Below are positions 8,253-55,063 of a DNA stretch of 64,000 bases, in pieces. The position numbers and the translations under genes are program-made. The notes below the pieces were generated by a model. That model searched no databases. It had not been told where the DNA came from and saw only the letters and a program-made list of their open reading frames with translations. Position 1 is the stretch's first letter, and every line of letters begins with the position of its first letter. Source of the DNA: Methanosarcina barkeri 3 (GTDB lineage Archaea > Halobacteriota > Methanosarcinia > Methanosarcinales > Methanosarcinaceae); NCBI RefSeq assembly GCF_000970305.1, contig NZ_CP009517.1, forward strand, positions 1,550,001 through 1,614,000, in the 5' to 3' direction.

Positions 8253-9128
8253 TTAGTACTCCGGAATTCCGGAGTAATTACTCTTTTTTTCCAGAAAGAT
8301 GACTGTATTATATGCAGGAGGTTCGGGCCTAATTCTCTTATATTCCCTGTAACCTTCAGGCAAATCAAGCAGAAAATCCCGGTTTAAAAGTTTCATTAAG
8401 CCTTTTTCGTAGATCCGGTAAGAAATTCTGCAGCCTGGCGGCATTACTGTCAGTAAATAATCGAGAATTTCTTTTTTAGGTTCAGCCTGAGCAGCTATCA
8501 CGAGAGCCTTTATTCCTGTATCAAGGCCAAGAAAATCTATTGGATTCATAGAGTAATGGGTCCCGTTAACTATAGTGATCTCTTTAGAAAGCCCGAGCTT
8601 ATCAAGCACTTCCGTTGAAAGCTTTGCCCTTTCAGAGTTCTGTTCTATCCCTGTGCCTTTTACCCCATGATATTTAAAGAAAACGATAAGCGTAAGGGGA
8701 AGAGGTCCACTCCCCAGGAAAAAAATTTTGTCTCCGGCTTTTAGCCCGAAACCTTCGTACTCTGTCCGAACCAGCTTGAGGTAATTTTTGTAAAAGGGAA
8801 ATTCCTCAAGGACGTCCCAGGGAGATTGGCTCGCAAGAACTTCCTTTGCATATCCGGTTTCCAGCTTCACGGTATATAGATTCCTGAACCGGTTCAAGTG
8901 GATGAAAATCGGTTCCAGCTCCTGTTTATTCAGGAGAATAGAAACTACACAACTATCCAGATCCTGGGTAATTAAAGCATCCAGCTTCAGAAACAGTTTT
9001 TTGGACTCATCCGAAGAGCTGGAAAGGATCTCTTCATCAGAGAGTTTCCTTATGTCCTTATACAAGTCAAGTATTTCTTTGAGAATAGCCTCTGAAAGCT
9101 CCGAACTCTCACCAATCGCACTAACCAT
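8253..9128 (-). CDS. Nicotianamine synthase-like protein
   Basis: 291 residues with the nicotianamine synthase family signatures SPWDVLEEFPFYKNY (about 102-116) and a Rossmann loop FLGSGPLPLT (about 137-146), which binds S-adenosylmethionine. Family members join aminocarboxypropyl groups from SAM into nicotianamine-type metal chelators; the archaeal homologue from Methanothermobacter makes thermonicotianamine. A metallophore or metal-homeostasis role is inferred. The ATG at 9128 is preferred over a TTG at 9140 because a GGGGATT site lies about 6 bases before the ATG. It is followed downstream by the convergent MerR-type gene. Confidence 0.85.
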   Translation of the reverse strand: MVSAIGESSELSEAILKEILDLYKDIRKLSDEEILSSSSDESKKLFLKLDALITQDLDSCVVSILLNKQELEPIFIHLNRFRNLYTVKLETGYAKEVLASQSPWDVLEEFPFYKNYLKLVRTEYEGFGLKAGDKIFFLGSGPLPLTLIVFFKYHGVKGTGIEQNSERAKLSTEVLDKLGLSKEITIVNGTHYSMNPIDFLGLDTGIKALVIAAQAEPKKEILDYLLTVMPPGCRISYRIYEKGLMKLLNRDFLLDLPEGYREYKRIRPEPPAYNTVIFLEKKSNYSGIPEY

Positions 9129-9290
9129 ACCAATCCCCAAAGAGTATTATGGTGCGCCTGAATATATTTCTATTGAGAATTTCCCCAAACCTGAAACTCA
9201 AAAGGCTGAGACTTAAATAATTATTCTGGCAGCAAAAGTATCTGAACAAAATGAAAAATATAAAAATCCATAGAAATCAGGAATCCGACT

Positions 9291-11410: not shown

Positions 11411-12085
11411 TCAGGAAGTAAGTTCACCATCACTTAACTTCACAACCTTATCTGCAACTCTGGCCATTTCAGGGGAGTGGGTTGCAACGACAAAACTGAT
11501 CTTCTGTTCTCTATTTATATCTTTCATGAGATTTGTGATTTTTTTCCCAGTAACCGAATCAAGGTTTCCGGTAGGTTCGTCGGCCAGAATAAGCCTGGGG
11601 TTATTTGCAAGAGCCCTGGCTATGGCTACTCTTTGCTGTTCTCCTCCAGATAATTCCGAGGGCAGGTGATGTATTCTATCTCCAAGTTCAACAAGGTCCA
11701 GGAGTTCAGTTGCTCTCTGTTTTTGTTGGGAACGGCTGATCCGGTTAAAATGCATCGGATAACAGACATTTTCAAGGGCGTTCATTGTAGATATTAAATT
11801 GAAAGCCTGGAATACAAAACCTATCGTCTGTCTGTGGAGTCTGACAAGGTGAGAAGAGTTTCTGTAGTCAACTTCGGTACCTTCTATAAAAACACTGCCA
11901 GAAGTAGGCTGGTCAAGGCAGCCAATAATGTTAAGTAGAGTAGACTTGCCGGACCCGGAAGCGCCCATAAAGGAAACAAATTCCCCTTCTTCAATTTGCA
12001 CATTTACTTCCCTGAGAGCCTCTACACGCATTCCGGAATCAAAAGTATAAAACTTTGACAGGTCTCTGGTTTCAACAATATTCAT
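11411..12085 (-). CDS. ABC transporter ATP-binding protein, LolD/MacB type
   Basis: 224 residues. Walker A GASGSGKST at 41-49, Q-loop Q93, signature LSGGEQ at 145-150, Walker B LILADEP at 165-171, H-loop H203. The sequence and length fit the LolD/MacB/FtsE-like subfamily, which works with FtsX-type permeases in extracellular mechanotransmission or lipoprotein/peptide transport. It is the last gene of an operon with two DUF3344 genes (24-base gap). No permease is adjacent; the only candidate in the window is at 53448-54632, itself beside another DUF3344 gene. Confidence 0.92.
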   Translation of the reverse strand: MNIVETRDLSKFYTFDSGMRVEALREVNVQIEEGEFVSFMGASGSGKSTLLNIIGCLDQPTSGSVFIEGTEVDYRNSSHLVRLHRQTIGFVFQAFNLISTMNALENVCYPMHFNRISRSQQKQRATELLDLVELGDRIHHLPSELSGGEQQRVAIARALANNPRLILADEPTGNLDSVTGKKITNLMKDINREQKISFVVATHSPEMARVADKVVKLSDGELTS

Positions 12086-12109: not shown

Positions 12110-13096
12110 TTAGCTACTCATCTTTTCAGAGGATTCGGACTCTTTAAACTTAAGCACAAGTATCGCATTTGTTGCCAGAAGATAATCTCCTTTGTCCTGA
12201 ATGCTAGCAAAATTCTCAGCCGGTTCTAGATAATCTGCTACCGGCTTCTCATCCAGAGCGACCTGGACAGTCTCATTTGTCTGGTAAATATTCTCCCAGC
12301 TTTTACCACTTCCGAACAGAAGCTGGATAATATCTCCAAGGACCGGAATACTACTGGTTTTCTCATTAAAAAAAAGCTTATTCCTGGCTTCTCTGCCCGA
12401 GCTGTATCCTCCTGAAGGCGAAACAGTTGTCAAGCGTGCATCCGTAACATTATCGAGGTTAATATCACCTTTAAAATAAGTAGTTGTTGTTGCCACTTCC
12501 GGAGTAATTCCGTAATCAGCATATAGCATATCACAACCTTCACCAATCCAGTACTCGATAATCGGTAATTTCGGGTTCTCGTATACGAGGAGAAGCCCGA
12601 TACCCTGTACGCAAAAGGTACTTCCGTTTTTGTCCGTATTTACCATTGAGATGGAATAACTTCCGGGTTTGGAAATCTTCCCGCTAAGGTCACATGTGTT
12701 CATCCCCGAGAAATAATCATACCTTGACACAAATCCCTTGGTATCCGTATACATGTGCCCTTCAGGCAGGGGTACAGCAGTTCCTGAGCTTGTAAGGGAA
12801 GCATTGAATTGCGGATATGTGCCTTCCAGATCTTTTTTGCTCCAAACCCAGTAAACGTAAGCTTTTGCAACCTTAATAGAACTCCCTGCAGGAGGATTAA
12901 CACTAAAGTTAACCATATAGCTTTTGTTGTATGTAAGCTCACCACTATATTTACTATCTCCGAGAGAAAAATCAAGGCCTCCATGGTGCTCATCATGGAT
13001 GACAGTCTGCAAGGGTTTATCTCCGGCATACGAGGCTGAAGCTGGAATTGTGAGCAGCAGGAGATTAAGCAAAATTGCAACTGGCTTCAAATTCAT
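12110..13096 (-). CDS. Secreted DUF3344 protein (single module)
   Basis: 328 residues with a signal peptide (MNLKPVAILLNLLLLTIPASA). DUF3344-type features are DKPLQTVIHDEHHGGLDFS at the start, an AKAYVYWVW strand, FCVQGIGLLLVYENP and YWIGEGCDMLYADYG. Very similar to the opening of the protein at 15801-17192 (DKPLETYIHD). No membrane anchor is seen at the C-terminus, so it is probably released or held by partners. The ATG at 13096 is chosen for GAGGAT upstream; it overlaps the end of the preceding gene by 32 bases, so translation is probably coupled. Function of the domain is not established. Confidence 0.82.
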   Translation of the reverse strand: MNLKPVAILLNLLLLTIPASASYAGDKPLQTVIHDEHHGGLDFSLGDSKYSGELTYNKSYMVNFSVNPPAGSSIKVAKAYVYWVWSKKDLEGTYPQFNASLTSSGTAVPLPEGHMYTDTKGFVSRYDYFSGMNTCDLSGKISKPGSYSISMVNTDKNGSTFCVQGIGLLLVYENPKLPIIEYWIGEGCDMLYADYGITPEVATTTTYFKGDINLDNVTDARLTTVSPSGGYSSGREARNKLFFNEKTSSIPVLGDIIQLLFGSGKSWENIYQTNETVQVALDEKPVADYLEPAENFASIQDKGDYLLATNAILVLKFKESESSEKMSS

Positions 13097-14852
13097 TATT
13101 ATCCTCATCCGACTCAACAATATGGTTATGCTCGTCGACTTTCGCTTTCAGGGTGTGCTCCCCACCCACAGTTTCAACCCGTATATCGTTCACGATTGTT
13201 TTTTGGCCTGTAATTTCCGGAATATTCAATACAGTGACACTTTTTCCGTCAAGAGAAATATTTACATCGAAGTTCCGAGCTGAAGCTTCTCCGTTATTAA
13301 TAATCTTTACCGGGACAGAGTAGGCAGTTTTCTCCGCTGCATGGGATTCTTCGATACAGCCACTTGAAGCCAGTATTATAAGTACCGCAAGTAAAAGTAG
13401 TAAATATGGTTTTTTTCTCCGGAATCCTAAAATCGAGAGGAAAGAAAGAAAAACTATAGAGGAAGACGCGGCTTCTTTCTGTGCCTCTATTTTTACAGGA
13501 TCTCCAAGGGAAACCGAAAGTTCTGGCTTTGACCTGACACTTACATTTAGTGCACAAACATTGTTTTTCTCATCTGACTCTTGTATATTATTTTCCGGGT
13601 CTAAAGAGAGTTCAAGCAGGTGTTTTCCTTTGATTGCAGACCATGAAAAAGAGGAACTATACACTCCGGAAGCTTCCATATGGACTGGGAAAGTTGAAAC
13701 CTCACTTCCATCTACCTTGAAGCTCATAGTGCAGTTCTGATCATAAATTTCCCCAGGATTGTTTATTGTGAAAGAGATTTTTGCCGGCATTCCATCGACC
13801 AGCTCTTCTTCAGAGATATTCATCTCAGGATAAAGGTCTGGAAGAACAGATGCCTTATCCTTTGAGCTCAAAACCAGGGCTGCAAGTACAGGATGCAGGT
13901 AGTCCTCTCCTTCCTTATCATCAATATCCCCATCCCCGTTCAGGTCAATTCCCCTCAAAAAGGTTGCTGAGTTATTATCCTGCAAATAATCAAGCACATC
14001 AAAACTTTCGATATCAAAATATCTGGAAGGAGAACCTTCATTTCCGGATGCATCATTACTTGTCTCATCAGCAATGTCTCTAACTTTTTCTCCATATTTT
14101 TCAGAGAGGTTCCTGGGTGAGGTTCCAAGAGTCTTTCCATTAAATTCAAGATAATCAGGCAGGCCCTTTGATCCTGTAAGGTATACTACTGAAAGATTTG
14201 CAGTATCCTTGTTATTCAAAGCCTGTCCGCAGCTGAAATTAACATTTGCCCTGTCATTAGAATTTGCCAGGGTACCGCTCCAGCCTTTCCCGTGAAGATT
14301 TACGTTTCCGCTAAGGAGCTGGTAGGAAACTTCAGGTGCTTTTTCGTTCTCACATCCCACGGCAAGCACTGCACCATATACCCTTCCATCCAGCTTGTTT
14401 CCTGGCTCTCCCTTGCTTGTAAGGATGTTCACAATATTTTCACCATTTTTTGTAACATTGCTTACATCATAAGAAACCCAATAAACTCCATGGCCTGCAC
14501 AGTATACATTTTTGCTTTCGTCATTAACACCAGCAAGCGGTAACTGCTCAAGCTTTTGCCCGTTAAACTCAGGCCGGAGCCATCCTTCGTAATTTTCCGT
14601 GCCCCCCCAAACTCCAACATACAGACGAGCCCAGCGGACAGTACCATCCGGAACGTTAAAGTTTTGGGAATAGGGAGGAAATGTAAGTCCGTGCCCTCCG
14701 TCTATGTACACTTCTCCTCGGAAAGTACCCTGAGCATCCAGAGTTAGAGGTATACCTTCAAAAGAGTAGCTGGCTCCTGTAAGAGGAATTGAAATTAGCA
14801 ATGAGAGCAAAAAGACAAACAATATAACTATTTTCGTAATTCCTGTTTTCAT
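13065..14852 (-). CDS. DUF3344-CARDB surface protein with internal anchor/lipobox junction and second CARDB
   Basis: 595 residues: signal peptide (1-27); DUF3344 module (about 30-330) with GEVYIDGGHG, RWARLYVGVWGG, GRVYGAVLAV; an EF-hand-like calcium loop DLNGDGDIDDKE near 303-314; CARDB-like domain (about 337-440). Then comes a hydrophobic segment ending FLSILGFRRKK (465-481), immediately followed by a signal-peptide-like PYLLLLLAVLIILASSGC with a lipobox (C499), and a second CARDB-like domain (about 505-595). The middle looks like the fused end of one membrane-anchored protein and start of a lipoprotein. First gene of the operon leading to the DUF3344 gene and ATPase. CARDB domains are Ig-like adhesion modules. 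Confidence 0.82.
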   Translation of the reverse strand: MKTGITKIVILFVFLLSLLISIPLTGASYSFEGIPLTLDAQGTFRGEVYIDGGHGLTFPPYSQNFNVPDGTVRWARLYVGVWGGTENYEGWLRPEFNGQKLEQLPLAGVNDESKNVYCAGHGVYWVSYDVSNVTKNGENIVNILTSKGEPGNKLDGRVYGAVLAVGCENEKAPEVSYQLLSGNVNLHGKGWSGTLANSNDRANVNFSCGQALNNKDTANLSVVYLTGSKGLPDYLEFNGKTLGTSPRNLSEKYGEKVRDIADETSNDASGNEGSPSRYFDIESFDVLDYLQDNNSATFLRGIDLNGDGDIDDKEGEDYLHPVLAALVLSSKDKASVLPDLYPEMNISEEELVDGMPAKISFTINNPGEIYDQNCTMSFKVDGSEVSTFPVHMEASGVYSSSFSWSAIKGKHLLELSLDPENNIQESDEKNNVCALNVSVRSKPELSVSLGDPVKIEAQKEAASSSIVFLSFLSILGFRRKKPYLLLLLAVLIILASSGCIEESHAAEKTAYSVPVKIINNGEASARNFDVNISLDGKSVTVLNIPEITGQKTIVNDIRVETVGGEHTLKAKVDEHNHIVESDEDNNEFEASCNFA

Positions 14853-15606
14853 ATCCGCTCACTTTCACACCAGAGCAAAGTTTCAACTTTGAGAGAAACC
14901 TGGTAAGTCTCTGATTTCATTTTTGGGTAGATTTCTTTAAGTTCATAGAATTAATATGACAAGTTCGTAGAATAAATATAACAAATTTGTCTCATAATTG
15001 AATATTTACAAAAACTTAAAGATTATTAAATATTACTACTTTTCTATTTTGTATGAATAATTATAATAATAGATAATTTTAATAAAGATTATTATAATCA
15101 AGATTTACACTCAAACTTAATCTGCATAGATGGCTAAATTTTCAACAATAAATATACGTTATTTTGAGAGATTAATCCTTTTAATACCATAAAAGATAAA
15201 TTAAAACCATTTTTGAAGTTTTTTAATGTATAAAGGATCAATAATCTTATTTTTTTAAGTTTTGAACTTTAATTTTGGTTTTGGTATAAAATCATAATAA
15301 CTTAAAAATAGTACTAATTGTTGCCATATTAACATATTGATTAGTGATTTTTTAACAAAAATTATATACTCAGAGTTATTAGCTATCTACTAAATTATAA
15401 TATCAAGAACATGGGAAAAATTAAACAATATTTCGTTTTAAATAATATTTAACTCTAAACGAGATTCCATTTTAAACAATATTTCATTTTAAACAATCTC
15501 CCATGCATTCGAATCGACGTCTGTATTTTGAAGAATGCCTTACAAGCCCGTTTTGAAATAGTCCAATGGAACCTCAAACTTGGAGTAAACTTATGATAAG
15601 GAGGAT
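14853..15606. other. Very AT-rich divergent spacer
   Basis: Separates the leftward DUF3344 operon from the rightward DUF3344/PGF gene, so it must hold two promoters. Short words such as TCATTTTAAACAAT recur around 15430-15500. No gene seen before the small frames that start at 15607. Confidence 0.5.
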
Positions 15607-15804
15607 ATGGATTCAGTTTTACTCGAGCCCATGATAGAAACAGTAGATGAGCAGGATCTATGTGAAACTGAAATAGTAAAAATAGCTGAGAAATGAGCAG
15701 GATCTATGTGAAACTGAAATAGTAAAGATAGCTGAGAAAGGAAGATGAAAACGCAGAATAGCAGAAATAATGGCAAATTTTGCAGGTGGAAAGATAGGAT
15801 ATGA
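15607..15804 (+). other. Chain of three tiny overlapping reading frames leading into the DUF3344/PGF gene
   Basis: A 29-codon frame (MDSVLLEPMIETVDE...) begins at 15607 beside AAGGAGGAT. Its stop overlaps, as ATGA, the start of a 9-codon frame (15693). A third frame of 19 codons (15745, MKTQNSRNNGK..., with AAAGGAAG just before it) ends in another ATGA overlap with the large gene's ATG at 15801. Such overlaps are typical of translational coupling, so these may be leader peptides. They may also be a by-product of the 46-bp duplication in this stretch. Confidence 0.35.
15649..15740 (+). repeat. 46-bp direct tandem duplication
   Basis: Two copies (15649-15694 and 15695-15740), each beginning GAGCAGGATCTATGTGAAAC, differing at very few positions. 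The duplication creates the ATGA junction between the first two tiny frames. Confidence 0.9.
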
Positions 15805-17192
15805 AGACTAGAAGAGTAGAACAAAAAGGAGATCAAAAAAGAGATCGGAAAGGAGATCAGAAAGGAAATCAAAAAGAAGATCAGAAAGGAAATCAAAAAG
15901 GAGATCAAAAAGGAAATCAAAAAGGAGATCAAAAAGGAAATCAAAAAGGAGATCAAAAAGGAAATCAAAAAAGAGATCAAAAAGGAGATCAAAAGAAGAT
16001 ATATAAAACGAGAAAAATTTGGGGAATAAATGAAGATCATAAGGCAAATAGCGAACATAAAATAAGAATAATAAGACTCAGCCAGGAAGGAAATAAATTT
16101 AACCGGCTGGTAAGGTTACTTTGCGTGATAGCAGGACTATGCTGTTTGCTTTCCATGCCTGCCCTGGCCCAGGCCCCCGAGAAAAACGGATACATAGCAG
16201 ACAAGCCACTTGAAACATACATCCATGACTCGATTAATGGAGGTCTCTATTATAGTGTTGGAAGCAGTTATTACAGTGGGAAGGTCTATCCCGGAGACGT
16301 ATACTCTACAACACATAACATCGATCTGCCCGAAGGATCGACAGTAAAATTCGCAAGGCTTTACAATTACTGGACCTGGAGTGCCGAAGGTGTCACTGGC
16401 AGGTACCCTGAGATGAAAGTGAGATTTAACGGAAAAGAACTTACACCTGAAAAAGAATACAGTGACAGGAAAGGCTGGGGCATCTATGATTATCCCACAG
16501 GCACCTGGGCCTATAACATAACCGATCTTGTGAACGGTTCGGGTACTTGTAGCACTGAGATTGAAAACACAGGCCCTGATGCATCTTTTGTTTGTATTGA
16601 TGGTGTAGGTTTGCTAATAGTTTATACGGACCCTAAAGGAAAAGACATCGAATACTGGATCAATGAAGGAGCTGAAGAACTCAATTCTCAGGTGGATGAG
16701 AACGGCAATCCTCTTTATTATGCGAGCTCTAATGAGACAATTTGTGAAATGCTCAAGCCTACCTTGCAGCTCCCTGTCCGCAGTGCAACCCTCTGGACGA
16801 TTGCTCAATCCGGAAACTGGAATGATAACGCTCTCCTGATAAACGATCAAAAATTTCCCGGGATTACCGATGGAGAACCTTATCCTGACCTTGATACCGA
16901 TATGAGGGATATCACAAGCTACCTGAAATCTGGAGAAAATAGCATCCTTTTCCAGGCCATAGGAGACTATGTGGTACCTTCAGGGGCCTTCTTAGTGATT
17001 GAAAAAGATCCGCAGGCAGAAGAAGCAGCACAGGCTTCTGAGGAAAGTTCCGGAAAATCGGATGAAACCGGCGAAACTCAGGAGACTTCCGGAAACGAAG
17101 CGAGCAAGGCCCCAGGATTTGGATTTGATTATGCCCTTGCCTTTTTAACTGCAGGTAAACTGGTTGCAGGGCATAGACAGAAAAAGGGTTGA
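15801..17192 (+). CDS. DUF3344 surface protein with charged-repeat N-terminus and PGF-type C-terminal sorting signal
   Basis: 463 residues. Residues 10-65 are 14 tetrapeptides of the (G/R/E)(D/N)QK type. A signal peptide follows near 100-122 (LVRLLCVIAGLCCLLSMPALA), then a DUF3344 module (about 125-400: DKPLETYIHD, GLLIVYTDP, YWINEGAEEL), an acidic Ser/Glu linker, and a C-terminus APGFGFDYALAFLTAGK with a basic end. The PGF plus hydrophobic helix plus basic tail matches PGF-CTERM signals processed by archaeosortase A, so lipid anchoring at the cell surface is expected. The start at 15801 has AGGAT close by. No ATG, GTG or TTG lies in frame between the repeats and the signal peptide, so the charged head may really be made. 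Confidence 0.8.
   Translation: MKTRRVEQKGDQKRDRKGDQKGNQKEDQKGNQKGDQKGNQKGDQKGNQKGDQKGNQKRDQKGDQKKIYKTRKIWGINEDHKANSEHKIRIIRLSQEGNKFNRLVRLLCVIAGLCCLLSMPALAQAPEKNGYIADKPLETYIHDSINGGLYYSVGSSYYSGKVYPGDVYSTTHNIDLPEGSTVKFARLYNYWTWSAEGVTGRYPEMKVRFNGKELTPEKEYSDRKGWGIYDYPTGTWAYNITDLVNGSGTCSTEIENTGPDASFVCIDGVGLLIVYTDPKGKDIEYWINEGAEELNSQVDENGNPLYYASSNETICEMLKPTLQLPVRSATLWTIAQSGNWNDNALLINDQKFPGITDGEPYPDLDTDMRDITSYLKSGENSILFQAIGDYVVPSGAFLVIEKDPQAEEAAQASEESSGKSDETGETQETSGNEASKAPGFGFDYALAFLTAGKLVAGHRQKKG
15828..15995 (+). repeat. 12-bp coding minisatellite, 14 copies
   Basis: In-frame units such as GGAGATCAAAAA and GGAAATCAAAAA, mostly alternating, encode GDQK/GNQK tetrapeptides. Copy number can change without shifting the frame. 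The opposite strand gives a long hydrophobic frame that is an artefact of the repeat. Confidence 0.9.
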
Positions 17193-17228: not shown

Positions 17229-18107
17229 TCAAATAGGCACGGTACCCCCGAAACCAATGTAGCTCAGATAAAGCCCACCTGACGTTAAAAGGATTGTATA
17301 TATCAAAAAGATATAATCATTCCTTTTTAATTTGAGTTCATTTACATAGGTCCTGTGCCTGTTTGCTCGAAAGCCTCGTGTGTCGGCAGCAATGGCAAGT
17401 TTTCTTCCTGCCCGAAGTATATTAACTACAAGAGGAACAAGGATATATTTGAGGGCCTTTGCTTTTCTGCGGACGTCACCTTTAAGCTCAAGCCCTCTTG
17501 CTTGCATTGCGTTCAGGATTATGCCGCTTTCTTCGAGCATTGTAGGAGCAAAGCTGACCGCAGAGGATACCATAAATGCAATTTCATATGGAATACCTAT
17601 TCTATAACTTTTTCCTGCAGTCCGAATTTCGAAAAAGCGAACAAATGCGTCGATAAGCATTCCGGGATGAGTTGTGGCAATAACAAGCATAGCAGCACTT
17701 AGAGAAGCCATAACACGGAAGGACTGATATAGCCCATAGACGGCTCCGTCTGCGTAGAAATAGATTCCCCCTGTAAGAGGTCCCAATAATGGGAAAGACG
17801 ATGGAACGAGAGTAAACAACGGATCTTTAGCCCAATAATAAAAAAGAGCCTGCGATATTGTAAAACTCAATAGAACACTCATGAAGATAATAATTATTGC
17901 CTTTATCCTGCTTTTTGAGGGTTTTAACATGACCCAGAAAGGTAAGGTTGATATGAATAATATTGCCAATAGATCCGGAGTCCCGAACACAACACTTAGC
18001 ACCGATATTCCAAAGAGCCAGAACAATTTAACTCTCGGGTCAAGCCTGTGAAGCAAGCTATCTTTTTGTTCATAGCGAAAAAGACTTTTCAAACATGGAT
18101 CCTCCAT
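17229..18107 (-). CDS. ECF transporter transmembrane component T (EcfT/CbiQ family)
   Basis: 292 residues with several membrane spans (about 27-60, 68-95, 130-150, 180-200, 265-285). It has the two cytoplasmic coupling motifs of EcfT: ARGLELKG near 205 and ADTRGFRA near 245, which dock into the ATPases. With two EcfA ATPases it powers uptake of a vitamin or metal bound by an S component. It is divergent from the double-EcfA gene, with a 94-base shared promoter region. The ATG at 18107 is used here, but GGAGG lies just after it, so a TTG at 18092 is a serious alternative. No S component is adjacent; see 51079-52170. Confidence 0.9.
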   Translation of the reverse strand: MEDPCLKSLFRYEQKDSLLHRLDPRVKLFWLFGISVLSVVFGTPDLLAILFISTLPFWVMLKPSKSRIKAIIIIFMSVLLSFTISQALFYYWAKDPLFTLVPSSFPLLGPLTGGIYFYADGAVYGLYQSFRVMASLSAAMLVIATTHPGMLIDAFVRFFEIRTAGKSYRIGIPYEIAFMVSSAVSFAPTMLEESGIILNAMQARGLELKGDVRRKAKALKYILVPLVVNILRAGRKLAIAADTRGFRANRHRTYVNELKLKRNDYIFLIYTILLTSGGLYLSYIGFGGTVPI

Positions 18108-18201: not shown

Positions 18202-20082
18202 ATGGATTCCTTATCTGAGAAAGTTTCAGTTGGCTTGGGAACTGCACATATCAAGCTTGAAAACCTCACATACAGCTACCCTCACTCAGATTCCCAGGTA
18301 CTTTCGGACGTAAATCTTGAACTTAAAAAAGGGGAATTTGTGCTACTTGTGGGTCCCAGCGGTTGTGGGAAAAGTACTCTTGTCCGCTGCTTTAACAGGC
18401 TGATTCCAGAAATCTCAGGAGGAAGTTTTTCCGGACATGTTCTGCTTCAGGGAAAAGATCTTAAAAATGAAAAAATCAGGAAGCTGGCTCTTGAAGTTGG
18501 AATGGTGTTCCAGAATCCGGAAACCCAATTGTTTTGTATGACAGTAGCTGAAGATATTTCTTTTGGACCTGAAAATTTGGGCTTGCCCAGAGCTGAGATA
18601 CTATCCCGCGTAGAAAAAGCTCTTAAAGCAGTTAGACTGGAGAAACTTAGCAATCACTTCATTTTCACACTCTCAGGAGGAGAAAAACAGAGGACTGCAA
18701 TAGGAGGAAATCTAGCAATGGAGCCTGAAATCCTGGTACTTGATGAACCGACATCGGATCTTGACCCTACAGGCACTCAGGAGGTGCTTGAGCTACTAAA
18801 AAGACTAAATGAGGAAAAGCAAACAACCCTTATTCTGATAGAACACAAACTTGATTCGGTTTTTGAAATAGCAGACCGTATGCTTGTTATGGACAAAGGC
18901 AGATTTATCTTTGATGGAAAACCTTTCGAAATCCTGTGCCGTGAAGAAGAAACACTCAAAAGACTTGGAATTCATCCCCCTCAACTTACTGAAATTGCTC
19001 ATCTGCTGGGAATGGATTCCGAAGCTTCAATAGCTCTATCCTATGAAAACGTTCTGAATAGGCTTGCTAAACTCTTGCAAATACCTGCAAGCCAATTTGA
19101 AAGCCAGATAGAACAAAAACATGAAACTTTCAGTTCTATTGAAATTTCCAGCTCTGTTGAAACTTTCAGTTCTATTGAAATTTCCAGCTCTGTTGAAATT
19201 TCCAGTTTTATTGAAACTTCCAGTTCTATTTTACCCTCAGAGGAAAATTTACCCTTTGTACGAATAGAGAATCTCTCCTACAGGCTTGAAGATGGTTCGG
19301 AAATCCTCAAAGATATTAATCTGGATATCAAAAGTGGAGAGTTTCTTGCTCTTCTTGGACACAACGGAGCTGGAAAGACAACTCTAGCAGGCAACTTAAT
19401 AGGATTTTGCAGGCCTTCCGGTGGAAGAATCCTTCTTAACGGAAAAGACATAGAGAGGTATTCGACAGCTCAGTTATCAAAAAAAGTTGGGTACCTTTTC
19501 CAGAATCCAGATTCGCAGATATTTATGGACAGTGTATTTAAAGAAGTTCGTTTTGGACTCGAGAACATGGGTATTCCCAAAAAGGAAATTGAAAAACTGG
19601 TAAACGAATCCCTGGAAACGATGGAACTTTCGGCTTATAAAAATAGGCATCCCCACTCTCTCTCAAGAGGGCAACGACAGCGCCTGGCAGTAGCTTCCAT
19701 TCTTGCCCTCGAGCCGGACCTTCTTGTCCTGGATGAACCCACAACAGGGCAGGACAGAGGACACATACTTAAGTTCCTTGATAAAATCAAGGAGCTGAAA
19801 AAACTTGGGAAAACGGTTATTCTCATAACACATGACATGGAACTAGTAGCCGAGTATGCTGAAAGGATTGTAGTAATGAAGCAGGGGAGAGTCCTGCTGG
19901 ACGGACCAACAGCAAAAGTATTCTTAAGCACGGATAAACTGAATGAAGCTGGAATCATCCCTCCCCTCCTTTCAAGACTTTGCTTTGACCTTCAAAAACA
20001 GGGAATTAATGTTCCTCCAATATTAACAGTCTCCGAATTGAAATCTTTCCTCCGGGATCATTGTCCGGAGTTGCGGGATTGA
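18202..20082 (+). CDS. Energy-coupling factor ATPase, two fused ABC domains (EcfA-EcfA)
   Basis: 626 residues, a tandem fusion of two nucleotide-binding domains. The first has Walker A GPSGCGKST, signature LSGGEKQ and Walker B LVLDEPTSD. The second has GHNGAGKTT, signature LSRGQRQ (Arg for the usual second-position Gly, which occurs in this group) and LVLDEPTTGQD. They are joined by a Ser/Glu-rich linker (about 308-343) built from a 36-bp repeat. Both sites look catalytically complete. Paired with the divergent EcfT gene. Cytoplasmic face of the membrane. Confidence 0.92.
   Translation: MDSLSEKVSVGLGTAHIKLENLTYSYPHSDSQVLSDVNLELKKGEFVLLVGPSGCGKSTLVRCFNRLIPEISGGSFSGHVLLQGKDLKNEKIRKLALEVGMVFQNPETQLFCMTVAEDISFGPENLGLPRAEILSRVEKALKAVRLEKLSNHFIFTLSGGEKQRTAIGGNLAMEPEILVLDEPTSDLDPTGTQEVLELLKRLNEEKQTTLILIEHKLDSVFEIADRMLVMDKGRFIFDGKPFEILCREEETLKRLGIHPPQLTEIAHLLGMDSEASIALSYENVLNRLAKLLQIPASQFESQIEQKHETFSSIEISSSVETFSSIEISSSVEISSFIETSSSILPSEENLPFVRIENLSYRLEDGSEILKDINLDIKSGEFLALLGHNGAGKTTLAGNLIGFCRPSGGRILLNGKDIERYSTAQLSKKVGYLFQNPDSQIFMDSVFKEVRFGLENMGIPKKEIEKLVNESLETMELSAYKNRHPHSLSRGQRQRLAVASILALEPDLLVLDEPTTGQDRGHILKFLDKIKELKKLGKTVILITHDMELVAEYAERIVVMKQGRVLLDGPTAKVFLSTDKLNEAGIIPPLLSRLCFDLQKQGINVPPILTVSELKSFLRDHCPELRD
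19123..19230 (+). repeat. 36-bp in-frame repeat encoding the linker between the two EcfA domains
   Basis: Two identical 36-bp copies (19123-19158, 19159-19194) and a diverged third, each made of two related 18-bp halves. They encode FSSIEISSSVET-like dodecapeptides. Linker length can therefore change in steps of 12 residues without frameshift. Confidence 0.88.
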
Positions 20083-50664: not shown

Positions 50665-50924
50665 AGTTTTAGGTGTAGCGTGTATTCCGCAAGTCCACAA
50701 AATAAAACCGTTTCCCAATATTGTACCGGTTCGAAAACTCATCTCACAAAAACGGTAGTAAGAAGCCAAACTCTAAGATACATATGTGCGGAATATTAGG
50801 GTGAAGGGTCGGGCCAAAAAAATTTCTGGTCCTTTTCCCAATTAAACTTTTTTAAGGCTTTTCTAGAACGATAGAAGGGCTTACGGATTGAAATACACAT
50901 AAAAGTAAAATTTACTATTTATTT

Positions 50925-51056
50925 GCTTACTATTTACTTGCTTACTACTTACTTGCTTTACTGTTTACTTGCTTTACTGTTTACTTGCTTTACTGTTTAC
51001 TTGCTTTACTGTTTACTTGCTTTACTGTTTACTTGCTTTACTGTTTACTTGCTTTG
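50925..51056 (+). repeat. 16-bp tandem repeat tract
   Basis: Units of TTTACTGTTTACTTGC, perfect in the centre (about 50958-51050) and decayed at the left end (TTTACTATTTATTTGC). It lies just past the 3' end of the S-component-like gene. Confidence 0.85.
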
Positions 51057-51078: not shown

Positions 51079-52170
51079 TTAAAGCCTTGCTCCGCTCATT
51101 TTTACAGCTGTATCGTAACCAAGCAGCCCTCCTATTAACCCTCCTGCACATGCAAGTGCAAGTTGAACCCCTATATACCAGGGTGCATATGAGATTTTCC
51201 ACTCAACCGGGGCATAGAGCATGTAGAACACAAGGGTTGAAACCATACCTCTTGATATGCCGTAGACCGCAGCTGTCAGTCGCCTGTCTGCGTAGTCCAT
51301 CCCGAATAAGAAGACCAGGAGGTCAACTACAACTCCCTCGGCCAGGTAAAAGCCCAGCCACATTATCTGGGAACCCCAAACAACAACACTTATTAGCAGG
51401 ACACAGGCAAAAAGTAAAGTTGCAGTTCCGGGCTTCCTGACTAGCTGCAGGGCTACCACCATCAGGATGACTGTGGGAATTGCAATAACCAGCCCGTCAA
51501 ACCAGCCCAGATTGATGAGTTTACTTATGTACCTAAAAACTACGGCAATAATGGCTGCAAGAAGTGCTATTGTTATAAGGTCAACAGTTGAAAAGAGTTC
51601 GAGAACTCCAAAATGTTTTACAGCCACCAGAATGCCAGCAAAGAGCAGGAGACTTGCCAGAATAGTAAAATAAGTCAGCCAGGAAGGTGGTGGTACAATA
51701 CTTATAGTTTGTTCACTTTGCTGCTCACCACCAGGGTAGACCATATGAATTTTTAAAGGGACCTCTTTTTTAAACTTAATAGAGGCAGGTGGTTTTACGT
51801 CCAGAAGGAGACCTGCGCTTTGTCCTGGAGACAGATCTCCTATTTCAGCCTTGAGGTTCTGTCCTTCCTTTGTTATGGGATATAGTTGAGAAGAGGCTTT
51901 GATTTCCAGATCTTGCGGAACTTCAATTAGTACGGTTACATTATGTAAGGGTTCACTTCCGAGATTCTGAATATTTACTCTGGCCCTCTCCCATGTTTGT
52001 CCTGCTACAAGGACATTGGAAGCTTGATTCTTGTCCATTGGGACCTCCAGACTACACCCAAGTAGGGATGTCGATGAGCTGGAAACTGCTCCTGATATAA
52101 TAACTCCGGGAGCAAAATAAACAGACAGGATCAGTGCAAGCACTGCTACGAGAATCAGTCCGTATTTCAT
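51079..52170 (-). CDS. Membrane protein with exported beta-sandwich domain and YkoE-like ECF S-component region
   Basis: 363 residues. N-terminal membrane helix (4-24), exported domain (about 40-170) of the NEW3/CARDB-like kind (ERARVNIQNLGSEPLHNVTVLIEVP), then about seven membrane helices. The C-terminal part, RKPGTATLLFACVLLISVV ... GFYLAEGVVVDLLVFLFG ... RRLTAAVYGISRGMVSTLVF, resembles the YkoE group of ECF substrate-binding components (pattern RKPGxAxxxE, GxxxGxxxELxF). If so, it could pair with the EcfT/EcfAA genes at 17-20 kb. Last gene of the operon permease / DUF3344 / this gene. Substrate unknown; the family match is my inference from pattern. Confidence 0.55.
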   Translation of the reverse strand: MKYGLILVAVLALILSVYFAPGVIISGAVSSSSTSLLGCSLEVPMDKNQASNVLVAGQTWERARVNIQNLGSEPLHNVTVLIEVPQDLEIKASSQLYPITKEGQNLKAEIGDLSPGQSAGLLLDVKPPASIKFKKEVPLKIHMVYPGGEQQSEQTISIVPPPSWLTYFTILASLLLFAGILVAVKHFGVLELFSTVDLITIALLAAIIAVVFRYISKLINLGWFDGLVIAIPTVILMVVALQLVRKPGTATLLFACVLLISVVVWGSQIMWLGFYLAEGVVVDLLVFLFGMDYADRRLTAAVYGISRGMVSTLVFYMLYAPVEWKISYAPWYIGVQLALACAGGLIGGLLGYDTAVKMSGARL

Positions 52171-52484
52171 ATATTACCTCATTTCATCAGGATTGATTTT
52201 TTCAGAACTAATTTTCTTCGGGATTAATTTTCATAAGGATTAATTTTCATAAGGATTAATTTTCATAAGGATAATTTTCATAAGGATAAATTTTCATCAA
52301 AATCAACTTCATCAGAATTAACTTCATCAGAATTAATTTTCGTCAGAATTAATCTTCATCGGATTAAGTCCAGTTATCTATTCTATACAGTAAGACTATA
52401 CAGTAAGAGGAATTGCATACTTTTCAATCAAAGAATATTTTTTTCTTTTTTGAATCAATGTTAGAAGACCTCTTACGTACAACC
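52171..52484 (-). other. Short-repeat spacer between the DUF3344 gene and the S-component-like gene
   Basis: Between about 52200 and 52362 the words AATTTTCATAAGGATT and AATTAACTTCATCAG recur in tandem (16-bp period, four or five copies of the first). On the operon transcript this lies just upstream of the S-component-like gene's start. No gene. Confidence 0.75.
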
Positions 52485-53414
52485 TTATCTCTTCCTAAAC
52501 CTTATGGCAATAGCAAGGCAAGCCAGAAGACAGACAATTATTACTGGAAGAGGTACCTGTTCACCTTCCGCATTTTTTTGCTCATGCAATTTTAGGTACT
52601 CGTCATTTGATCCCGATTCGGAAACAAGGACTGCAACACAGGGATGCAAATAGCCTTCATCTCCCCTCTCAAAGCAAAGAGAACTTTCCGTACTCTGCGG
52701 TGAGACTGAAGTTGAAAAAAGGTCAAAGTACTTTCCCTGAGCAGACCTGAAAATATCGCTTCCGATATTCATAGAATCGAAATACAGTTCATCTTTTTCT
52801 CCTTCAGTACCTGCTACAACCATTGTATAGAGGCTTGAATTTTTTCCAGGGGACGTGCCTTCAAAGGTACTCGTTACATTATCTTTATTATTTGTATACG
52901 CAAGAGCATAGTTACCCTCGTTGATCCAGAACTTGACCGGAGACATGGACCTGTTCTCACAAACAGCTACCAGGGTAGTGCCATAAGGTCCACCTCCCGG
53001 AATTTCAGGCGAGATCGAAACCTCATTCATTCCGGAATGGAGAGAATTGTTAGTTTCTATACAATAGAGCCCGACTCCCCAGGCCGAAACATAATCCGGC
53101 TCTTGCATTATTGTCAGATCCTTTCCGTTGACCGTTACACGGATACTGTTCCCACTTTTAGAATTCCATACAGGTACGTAAAGTCTGGCGTATTTGATGT
53201 CCCCGGAGGGCAGTTTAAAATACTGGAGATAAGGGTTTTCTCCAGTATAGCCGTGTCCTCCGTCAACATAGACTTCTCCTCTGACAACTCCTTCTGCAAT
53301 CGTATACGGAGGAATACCGTCTCCCTGCCAACCTCTATTTCCAGAGAAGAAAAAAAGAAGTAAAAGTACAGTTCCAAGCAGCCCTATTATGAAGATTTTC
53401 TTCCCAGTGTCCAA
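52485..53414 (-). CDS. DUF3344 protein with N-terminal signal/anchor and C-terminal membrane helix
   Basis: 309 residues. Hydrophobic N-terminus (IFIIGLLGTVLLLLFFFSG), one DUF3344 module (GEVYVDGGHGYTGENPYLQY, IKYARLYVPVWNS, PYGTTLVAVCENR, FWINEGNYALAYT, KYFDLFS, GDEGYLHPCVAVLV) and a C-terminal helix with basic end (VIIVCLLACLAIAIRFRKR). It is therefore an anchored counterpart of the modules at 13065 and 59114. The start is set by a strong GGAGGTGA, which overlaps an in-frame GTG at 53423; the TTG at 53414 sits 6 bases after it and is the better start. Middle gene of the permease operon. Confidence 0.83.
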   Translation of the reverse strand: MDTGKKIFIIGLLGTVLLLLFFFSGNRGWQGDGIPPYTIAEGVVRGEVYVDGGHGYTGENPYLQYFKLPSGDIKYARLYVPVWNSKSGNSIRVTVNGKDLTIMQEPDYVSAWGVGLYCIETNNSLHSGMNEVSISPEIPGGGPYGTTLVAVCENRSMSPVKFWINEGNYALAYTNNKDNVTSTFEGTSPGKNSSLYTMVVAGTEGEKDELYFDSMNIGSDIFRSAQGKYFDLFSTSVSPQSTESSLCFERGDEGYLHPCVAVLVSESGSNDEYLKLHEQKNAEGEQVPLPVIIVCLLACLAIAIRFRKR

Positions 53415-53447
53415 ACAAATCACCTCCAGAACAAGTTAAGTATCCAT

Positions 53448-54632
53448 TCAAAGATGCCTCAGAGCCTTGATAGGGTCCATTTTTGCGGCCCTCCAGGCAG
53501 GATAAATCCCTGAAAGCACGGACACAAATAAGGAAATTACAAAACCGGCTACAAGAATCTCGGGGTTTAAGGCAGTCAGATGGCCAATATTTTCTATTCC
53601 GAGCCGTGATATCAACAGTGGCCTCCCCACTCTATCTATGAGCGTTGAGAGAAGAATACCAAAAAGATCTCCAAAAATTCCTCCAAGCGCTCCGATAAAC
53701 AGACATTCGGCTAAAAACATTCGCAGAATGTCAGATTCCGAAGCTCCAAGAGCTTTTGAGATCCCTATCTCCCTGGTTCGTTCGTAGACCGAGACGACCA
53801 TAGTGTTGATCACCATTAGTCCACCTACAAGCAGGGTAATACTTGAAAAAAAGACAAGGACAAGAGTCACCCCATTCATTATCCGGTTAACGGAATCAAT
53901 TTCGTCCTGGGCACTTGAAGTAGTAAGTCCGAGTTTTTCTATCTGTCTTCTTGTATCGCTAACAAGAGAGGAACTTTCCACTTTAACCAGAGCCCCGTCA
54001 TAATAATCCTTTTGGCTGAGTTCTTTTGCAGATTCAAGCCTCATAAAAGCTTCATTGTCGATTTCGTTTCCGGTTGGCTTTAGATACCCCACTGGAGTAA
54101 AACTTACTTCCTTATCGACTGGTCTTCCGTCACTTCCATAAAGGCGAAGCTTGGCTGTTATCGGTGTCCCTATTTTGGCTCCGTCCAATTTTTCCAGTTT
54201 TCCCCACAGATCACTTCCAAACACAATCTGGTTCTGTCCACTCTCGAACCAGCCCCCTCCGGCAAGCTCAAGCTCATTTGCAGTGCTGTAATCTTCCTGA
54301 ACACCAAATAGATCAAAATAGCTCCCCGAAGGGCTAACATAGGCATCCTTTACATAGGGACAAACAAGCTTTCCATATTCTTTTAGTTCTTCCACTTTTG
54401 ACTCACTTATAAGAGTGAGTCCATCATCCTTTAAACCTGGAGAAACATCAATCAGGGTCAGATCCCGGGACTTCTGGATCTCTTCTACCGCATTGATACG
54501 GAGACCTTCTCCGAAAGAGACGACGGCTACTACAGATGCTACTCCAATTGCGATTCCAAGGAGGATCAGCAGGCTTCGGAGTTTTTTAAGACGCAGCTGC
54601 CTTATTGCCATTGAAAATTCTTCTTTAAACAT
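53448..54632 (-). CDS. MacB/FtsX-type ABC transporter permease
   Basis: 394 residues: N-terminal helix (about 18-42, SLLILLGIAIGVASVVAVVSF), a large extracellular MacB-like domain (about 45-255), then three helices (about 260-285, 310-340, 360-385) with the conserved YERTREIGISKALGAS, LAECLFIGALGG and SGIYPAWRAAKMDPIKALRH. Such permeases work with LolD/MacB-type ATPases and transmit ATP-driven motion to extracellular partners. No ATPase is adjacent; the one at 11411-12085 is the matching type. 33 bases upstream of the DUF3344 gene, in one operon. Confidence 0.93.
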   Translation of the reverse strand: MFKEEFSMAIRQLRLKKLRSLLILLGIAIGVASVVAVVSFGEGLRINAVEEIQKSRDLTLIDVSPGLKDDGLTLISESKVEELKEYGKLVCPYVKDAYVSPSGSYFDLFGVQEDYSTANELELAGGGWFESGQNQIVFGSDLWGKLEKLDGAKIGTPITAKLRLYGSDGRPVDKEVSFTPVGYLKPTGNEIDNEAFMRLESAKELSQKDYYDGALVKVESSSLVSDTRRQIEKLGLTTSSAQDEIDSVNRIMNGVTLVLVFFSSITLLVGGLMVINTMVVSVYERTREIGISKALGASESDILRMFLAECLFIGALGGIFGDLFGILLSTLIDRVGRPLLISRLGIENIGHLTALNPEILVAGFVISLFVSVLSGIYPAWRAAKMDPIKALRHL

Positions 54633-55063
54633 TGCTCAACAGTCCTTGTTTCCATTTTCATTACTGTAATGGGGCAGGGATAAAGACCAAACCGTAGCCA
54701 TATCAAAATATCGAAATTACAGTAACGTAAAATTAATTAAAGAAAAATATTATGGACTACATGATTAAATAATACTTATTTTAGATTAATTAACATAAAT
54801 TATGAATATATATCTTTTTTGATTTTTCACAACTACTTATTAAGGAGTAATCTGAAATTTAAAATGTCATTTACCTCTAAATAGCCAAAAAAGGAGATCA
54901 TTAGGTAGTACAAATCCTAAGTGCAGGCTTCACCATAAGGTATTTTCAAGCTTATTTTAATAATTTAAAAGTTAATATTAACGAAATATTATGAAAAAAT
55001 GTAAAACTAATAGTAAGAAATATTTCGATGAGTATAATTAGTTTGAATATATGACTTGTATTT
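54633..55063. other. Divergent AT-rich promoter region
   Basis: Lies between the leftward permease operon and the rightward DUF2117-like gene. No gene or clear repeat. Confidence 0.5.

Follow-up and report, generated by a model that had tools for sequence, protein, structure and literature searches.

The window analysed here is a stretch of 64,000 nucleotides from Methanosarcina barkeri 3 (GCF_000970305.1, NZ_CP009517.1, positions 1,550,001–1,614,000 of the forward strand), a genome that is close to M. spelaei (98–99% protein identity). Three open reading frames on its minus strand encode a permease of 394 residues (MacB394), a surface protein of 312 residues (D312), and a membrane protein of 363 residues (S363), and these belong to a conserved cluster (Table 1) that, judging from sequence, probably encodes an energy-coupling factor (ECF)-type nutrient importer in methane-making and methane-eating archaea. 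For D312, the reading frame opens with a GTG at 53423, though a TTG at 53414, which GGAGGTGA precedes by a few bases, would give 309 residues and is the start that we prefer. With it, the gap between macB and D312 is 33 bases, and the gap between D312 and S363 is 314 bases (52171–52484), of which 186 are taken up by a tandem repeat. Both gaps, the repeat, and the three leftward genes are thus as a preliminary description of this DNA had given them.

Table 1. Features of the cluster and its surroundings, by position in the window.
Feature	Position	Strand	Basis
LolD-type ATP-binding cassette (ABC) ATPase	11411–12085	-	Domain, synteny
D336, exported DUF3344 protein	12110–13120	-	Domain, hydropathy, synteny
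D595, DUF3344 and two CARDB domains, internal hydrophobic segment	13065–14852	-	Domain, hydropathy, synteny
D463, DUF3344 protein	15801–17192	+	Domain, hydropathy, synteny
EcfT (CbiQ family), two Arg-Gly coupling motifs (ARG, TRG)	17229–18107	-	CbiQ, 84.3 bits
EcfA-EcfA fused double ABC ATPase (EcfAA)	18202–20082	+	Two ABC_tran domains
Insertion (about 31 kb) separating the stop codon of ecfAA from that of S363	20083–51078		Comparison with relatives
S363, signal/transmembrane segment, exported Ig-like domain, S-component-like membrane region	51079–52170	-	Reading frame, hydropathy, profiles, model
16-bp tandem repeat array in the D312–S363 gap	52182–52367		Repeat detection
D312, DUF3344 surface protein, N-terminal signal/anchor and C-terminal transmembrane anchor	52485–53414	-	Pfam, hydrophobic segments
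MacB394, MacB/FtsX-family (type VII, mechanotransmission-type) permease	53448–54632	-	MacB_PCD and FtsX matches
AT-rich block (AAATCAAAAAAG-TATATATTCATAATTTATGTTAATTAAT), about 41 bp	54785–54825	-	Alignment upstream of macB

The S363 chain starts with a signal or transmembrane segment, which is followed by an immunoglobulin-like (Ig-like; NEW3/CARDB-like) domain at approximately residues 36–160, a PPPS linker, and a membrane part (residues 164–359, with hydrophobic segments beginning near residue 163) that comprises one linker helix and a six-helix region resembling the substrate-binding (S) component of ECF transporters, about seven membrane helices altogether. Its C-terminus lies some 4 residues past the last helix, without a cytosolic signalling domain. 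Compared with Pfam, S363 gave nothing above cut-off, the Ig-like part reaching a sub-threshold score alone (NPCBM_assoc, 15.9 bits). In an AlphaFold2 model, a β-sandwich spans approximately residues 37–159 (predicted local distance difference test, pLDDT, mostly 70–85 by block) and is succeeded by low-confidence helices. Since a fold search with the full-length model matched mostly Ig-like domains, the membrane part was folded separately. The predicted structure and its fold matches support an Ig-like assignment for residues 37–159.

As for the membrane part, we conclude that it is very probably an ECF S component related to YkoE, as five lines of evidence are concordant, none of them being decisive singly. 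When the whole genome was searched with PF09819 (YkoE), for which the Pfam gathering cut-off is 25.2 bits, the membrane region of S363 was the sole match, at 18.4 bits. Moreover, an S363 profile matched bona fide YkoE domains from a related class of the Halobacteriota, which score up to 80.7 bits to PF09819, with E-values of 5.6e-5 and 1.3e-4, whereas control profiles of EcfT and MacB gave 0.06–0.28 against the same domains. Folded alone, the membrane part yielded a low-confidence model (mean pLDDT 54.6), for which the best match in the PDB was 5EDL, the ECF S component YkoE (probability 1.00, E 0.082, template modelling score, TM-score, 0.43–0.45), with the next match at a probability of 0.47. 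A profile search of the PDB sequences with S363 returned no S component and a single chance match. Helix 1 carries two AxxxA motifs (A202–A206 and A205–A209), in which, among 13 diverse S363 sequences, A202 and A205 are invariant and positions 206 and 209 are either Ala or Gly. Such a motif in helix 1 is needed for the docking of S components on EcfT (PMC11109136, PMC4820897). The cluster holds no S-component candidate other than S363. The YkoE-like S component that had been proposed for this region therefore agrees with the profile, the fold match, and the ECF linkage described below. No assignment to a non-ECF family arose in its place, though the PF09819 threshold was not reached either, and S363 is not to be filed as a member of that family on its sequence.

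The two other products gave firmer domain matches. MacB394 contains MacB_PCD (75.9 bits) and FtsX (81.5 bits) domains, with PDB matches to MacB, LolC/LolF, and FtsX, and D312 contains a DUF3344 domain (PF11824; 85.4 bits, cut-off 27.2 bits) between hydrophobic segments at both ends, so the mechanotransmission-type (MacB) permease and the membrane-anchored DUF3344 protein of the preliminary description both stand. A C-terminal transmembrane segment is present in all D312 orthologues (31 of 31). In a tree with some long branches, these orthologues form a single clade (support 100/100), to which none of the cluster's other DUF3344 proteins belong. So far, DUF3344 has been classed as a fibrillar surface domain whose function is ambiguous (PMC9210967).

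S363 has homologues in some members of Methanosarcina, in one related family (f2, which includes an ANME-2 record, L042, the counterpart of genome G326), and in a third family (f3), several of these loci coming from fragmented assemblies. The order macB-D312-S363 is kept in 12 further Methanosarcinaceae loci at 62–99% protein identity, and is therefore more than chance. In nine of these 12, ecfAA and ecfT follow directly, mostly with D463, D595, D336, and lolD beyond, and the full order in Methanosarcina (L018, L022, L034, and L038) reads lolD, D336, D595, D463, ecfT, ecfAA, S363, D312, macB, and a DUF2117 gene. In several relatives, the stop codons of ecfAA and S363 abut or overlap, the overlap being 4 bases in some. 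Both f2 and f3 begin with a divergent ecfAA followed by ecfT, D312, and S363, after which come D595, D336, lolD, and macB in f2 and further DUF3344 genes in f3. EcfT and D312 overlap by 1–26 bp in f2 and f3 loci with ordinary start sites (both genes intact, in one operon), D312 and S363 overlap by 4–14 bp in many loci, and D312 is immediately upstream of S363 in all 33 loci. Genome G014 has the same cluster too. In the f2 genomes G334 and G326 and in G004, the ECF pair is found elsewhere or on another contig, and hence the ECF linkage is strong, not absolute.

The window keeps the gene order and orientation of its relatives, with the ECF, LolD, and DUF3344 part at 11.4–20.1 kb and the S363 stop codon at 51079. 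EcfT matches 4huq_T (phmmer, E 5.2e-15), its ARG and TRG aligning to the coupling motifs, and the Walker A, Walker B, and signature motifs are intact in both halves of EcfAA. While the three genes do group, as had been claimed for an operon of three, they are a fragment of a cluster of eight to nine genes that is split in this lineage by the 31-kb insertion. The same description had named the distant EcfT for modelling together with S363, and synteny and co-inheritance now link the two.

Regarding co-inheritance, of 25 Methanosarcina genomes, 10 contain S363, D312, MacB, and EcfT alike, and 15 lack all four. Across 120 genomes of the order, with EcfT orthologues taken at an identity of at least 55%, S363 was found in 25 and EcfT in 26, both occurring together in 24; these are given as counts, as kinship would inflate a significance figure. 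MacB orthologues are confined to genomes with S363 (12 of 12 in one search and 11 of 11 in another). Neither an EcfT orthologue among the PLSDB plasmids nor a relative among viral contigs was found.

S363 is not the sole YkoE-like S component with an exported domain. A paralogue (S520) of approximately 520–550 residues, with a long N-terminal exported part, is flanked by CobN on one side and EcfAA-EcfT on the other, both in this genome (L071) and in relatives (L072–L074), and its membrane part matches S363 (E 3e-8). The S520 loci (L071, G000:C1:2321001-2337000, and L072–L074) contain CobN, S520, EcfAA, EcfT, an ABC ATPase, and an ABC-2 permease, and in L072 two beta-propeller proteins precede them. 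A more distant family (L081–L083) has a clear PF09819 domain followed by a C-terminal domain, predicted to be exported, beside EcfAA-EcfT. The combination of YkoE (PF09819) with a C-terminal, probably exported domain beside EcfAA-EcfT was seen in L044–L046, L068, and L069 as well as in L081–L083, L081 also encoding an Oxidored_molyb domain protein.

In ECF transporters, substrate is bound by the S component, which docks to EcfT, toppling as it does so, and which EcfAA then resets (PMC7145868, PMC4820897). From the family assignments, gene order, co-inheritance, and AxxxA motifs, all read from sequence, we infer transport, surface capture, an Ig–DUF3344 contact, and a role for MacB-LolD, and consider it likely that the three genes belong to a dedicated ECF-type importer whose S component has an exported domain and is accompanied by a surface subunit, two of the families adding MacB-LolD. 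D312 and the cluster's remaining DUF3344 proteins would catch the substrate or hold it in place at the surface of the cell, either inside the surface layer (S-layer) or beneath it, and pass it to S363 via the Ig-like domain, whose docking on DUF3344 is plausible from gene order. The six-helix part of S363 would then bind the substrate and dock on EcfT, itself driven by the fused EcfA-EcfA ATPase, and ATP hydrolysis by EcfAA would reset S363 through the toppling that is known from ECF transporters. MacB-type permeases turn cytosolic ATP hydrolysis into movement outside the cell. In Methanosarcina and f2, MacB-LolD may accordingly spend ATP on shifting a DUF3344 partner at the surface (D336, D595, or D312) or setting it free, not on carrying substrate. 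LolD is likely the motor of MacB394, a partnership suggested by gene order, and lolD overlaps the start of macB in f2 loci. No MacA or TolC was seen among the cluster genes, no genome-wide search for them having been made.

Several observations weigh against this importer. The scores of S363 (18.4 bits) and its G004 homologue (19.9 bits) both fall short of the PF09819 cut-off, and the model of S363 is of low quality where it covers the membrane part (pLDDT 55–62; TM-score 0.43–0.45 to 5EDL). On a set of 180-residue YkoE sequences, one of eight column-shuffled profiles reached an E-value of 0.0018, as against 0.0019 for the first S363 profile, and that comparison is therefore weak alone. Moreover, no MacB or LolD orthologues were found in f3 genomes, which places MacB-LolD outside the universal core.

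The last of these points favours two systems side by side, an ordinary ECF importer next to a MacB-LolD that extrudes, releases, or matures DUF3344 proteins in the manner of Lol or FtsEX, with no mechanical coupling, as EcfAA, EcfT, D312, and S363 stay together in f3 and as the f2 cluster ends, past D595 and D336, with lolD and macB side by side. Nevertheless, in Methanosarcina macB has moved next to D312 and S363, with which it presumably shares a transcript, all the genes being kept together, and its restriction to S363-bearing genomes also speaks against mere neighbours; on balance, we regard uncoupled systems as a somewhat unlikely arrangement. Full coupling, rather improbable in our estimation, would amount to a two-engine importer of S-layer archaea, in which MacB-LolD would spend ATP from the outside in on the anchored DUF3344 proteins so that a captured metal chelate or corrinoid reaches the S component's exported domain, and a second ATPase topples the S component so that the cargo is released inside, a functional counterpart of TonB-dependent uptake without an outer membrane.

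A metal ion, or a metal chelate or corrinoid, is our leading, though tentative, guess at the substrate of the ECF-type importer. CobN adjoins the paralogue S520, and in all five f2 contigs that reach past macB (G343:C121, G358:C109, G032:C110, G337:C173, and G330:C102) a NikR-family gene (NikR_C, 55–58 bits; RHH_1, 27–35 bits) lies tail to tail with it. This neighbour, though, keeps one of the four nickel ligands (FE..RxH..Y versus QH..HxH..C, aligned to 2bj1). CbiM-CbiQ-CbiO genes are found beside the cluster in G362 and nowhere else, and CbiM was rejected as a general link, this being the sole case. A further hint is the Methanoperedens plasmid compared below, on which NikR and CbiMNQO genes lie near those for DUF3344 and EcfT/EcfA proteins. 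An ACT-domain protein beside lolD in other Methanosarcina (L017, L018, and L034) was likewise rejected as the counterpart of the f2 NikR, as the two have no similarity.

Similar hints could point to an export and re-import cycle, MacB-LolD exporting a metallophore-like chelator and the ECF part retrieving the metal complex, and the DUF3344 proteins acting as receptors at the surface. In bacteria, pumps of the MacB family are exporters of small molecules, the CobN link of S520 and the NikR-family neighbour in f2 would fit, and the window contains a nicotianamine synthase family gene (8253–9140; PF03059, 211.8 bits) near a MerR/GyrI-like regulator. That gene is not beside the cluster in the relatives examined and was rejected as part of the system; as the conserved gene set has no chelator biosynthesis gene at all, we find the cycle quite improbable. 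Still more improbable is that S363 is a sensor and not a transporter subunit, its S-component fold, as in 5TMR receptors, reporting a surface ligand through the Ig-like domain. This fold is common to 5TMR histidine kinases (PMC11109136), and a weak match to the UhpB histidine-kinase membrane region (12.6 bits) was found in the three-gene region, but S363 ends just past its last helix without a signalling domain, carries the AxxxA docking motif, and is linked, in almost all genomes, to EcfT and EcfAA. Finally, a chance neighbourhood within a surface-protein gene island, for which the many DUF3344 genes of the window, several unrelated to the cluster, might speak, is already refuted by an order kept in three families at 41–99% identity, by overlapping start and stop codons, by identical presence and absence in 25 congeners, and by the separate D312 clade.

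The 16-bp array between D312 and S363 is also found in the M. spelaei locus, while in the near-identical and equally close UBA11020 locus no gap repeat was found and the gap is 32 bases, so the array is a recent lineage-specific insertion outside the system, and the close spacing of D312 and S363 came first. Just downstream of S363 (50911–51055) lies another 16-bp tandem array, of 9.2 copies and a different unit. Seven further Methanosarcina loci preserve the AT-rich block upstream of macB; if macB, D312, and S363 have a common promoter, this block is the best candidate for it. No obvious shared regulatory motif emerged from the intergenic regions compared, and an Rfam scan of the window gave one tRNA and no riboswitch.

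Among the other DUF3344 proteins, D595 has its internal hydrophobic segment (approximately residues 480–503), with a lipobox-like ASSGC end, between its two CARDB domains, and so looks like an anchored protein fused to a lipoprotein; its length is kept in relatives. At the annotated start of D463, a low-complexity QKGDQKGN repeat (15801–16110) is open on both strands (minus-strand reading frame 15591–16058), and the true start is probably downstream of it. The 31-kb insertion holds giant DUF3344/PKD/CARDB proteins of up to 1905 residues as well as glycan-synthesis genes (glycosyltransferase, UDP-GlcNAc 2-epimerase, flippase, asparagine synthase-like, and C5-epimerase-like). PKD proteins, which the preliminary description had suggested as partners, are confined to this insertion and absent from the core clusters of relatives, and were rejected as such.

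YkoE (5EDL; PF09819, ABC_cobalt) is the S component of a thiamin/hydroxymethylpyrimidine ECF transporter. S363 shares with it a predicted six-helix membrane region, AxxxA in helix 1, the KPG(A/T) motif region, and neighbouring EcfT and double EcfA genes, but falls under the PF09819 cut-off and adds the exported Ig-like domain, the DUF3344 proteins, and MacB-LolD, with no support for thiamin uptake. In group I ECF transporters (CbiMNQO/NikMNQO), an own S component, EcfT, and EcfA are similarly encoded together, and CbiN, NikN, and NikL are likewise extra membrane or exported helpers beside the S component. Here, the helper is instead a large DUF3344 surface protein together with the Ig-like domain fused to the S component, and S363 is not CbiM-like. 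The S520-CobN loci (L071–L074) have in common with the cluster a paralogous S component with exported domains, a double EcfA, EcfT, and a second ABC transporter, with the CobN chelatase and an ABC-2 transporter in place of DUF3344 and MacB-LolD. Going by their published annotation, ORFs 67–75 of the Methanoperedens plasmid HMp_v1 are probably the same system: NikR, extracellular DUF3344 proteins, and EcfT/EcfA-like ABC proteins adjoin one another there, preceded by two CbiMNQO sets, and received no more than a brief annotation, with a biotin transporter as the guess (PMC9674854). With MacB, LolCDE, and FtsEX (type VII ABC), the shared features are a MacB_PCD and FtsX permease and a separate LolD-type ATPase, but here a probable ECF importer and surface proteins of the DUF3344 family lie alongside, and no MacA or TolC was seen in the cluster.

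The system is best filed as a new variant of ECF transporters, for which an S component with an exterior domain and its own surface protein is unusual. To our knowledge, ECF transporters are held to work without an extracellular binding protein. The cluster offers a first functional lead for the large DUF3344 family, and an S component that carries an exported domain and is genetically inseparable from a surface protein may provide a way into how archaeal ECF importers reach beyond the S-layer.

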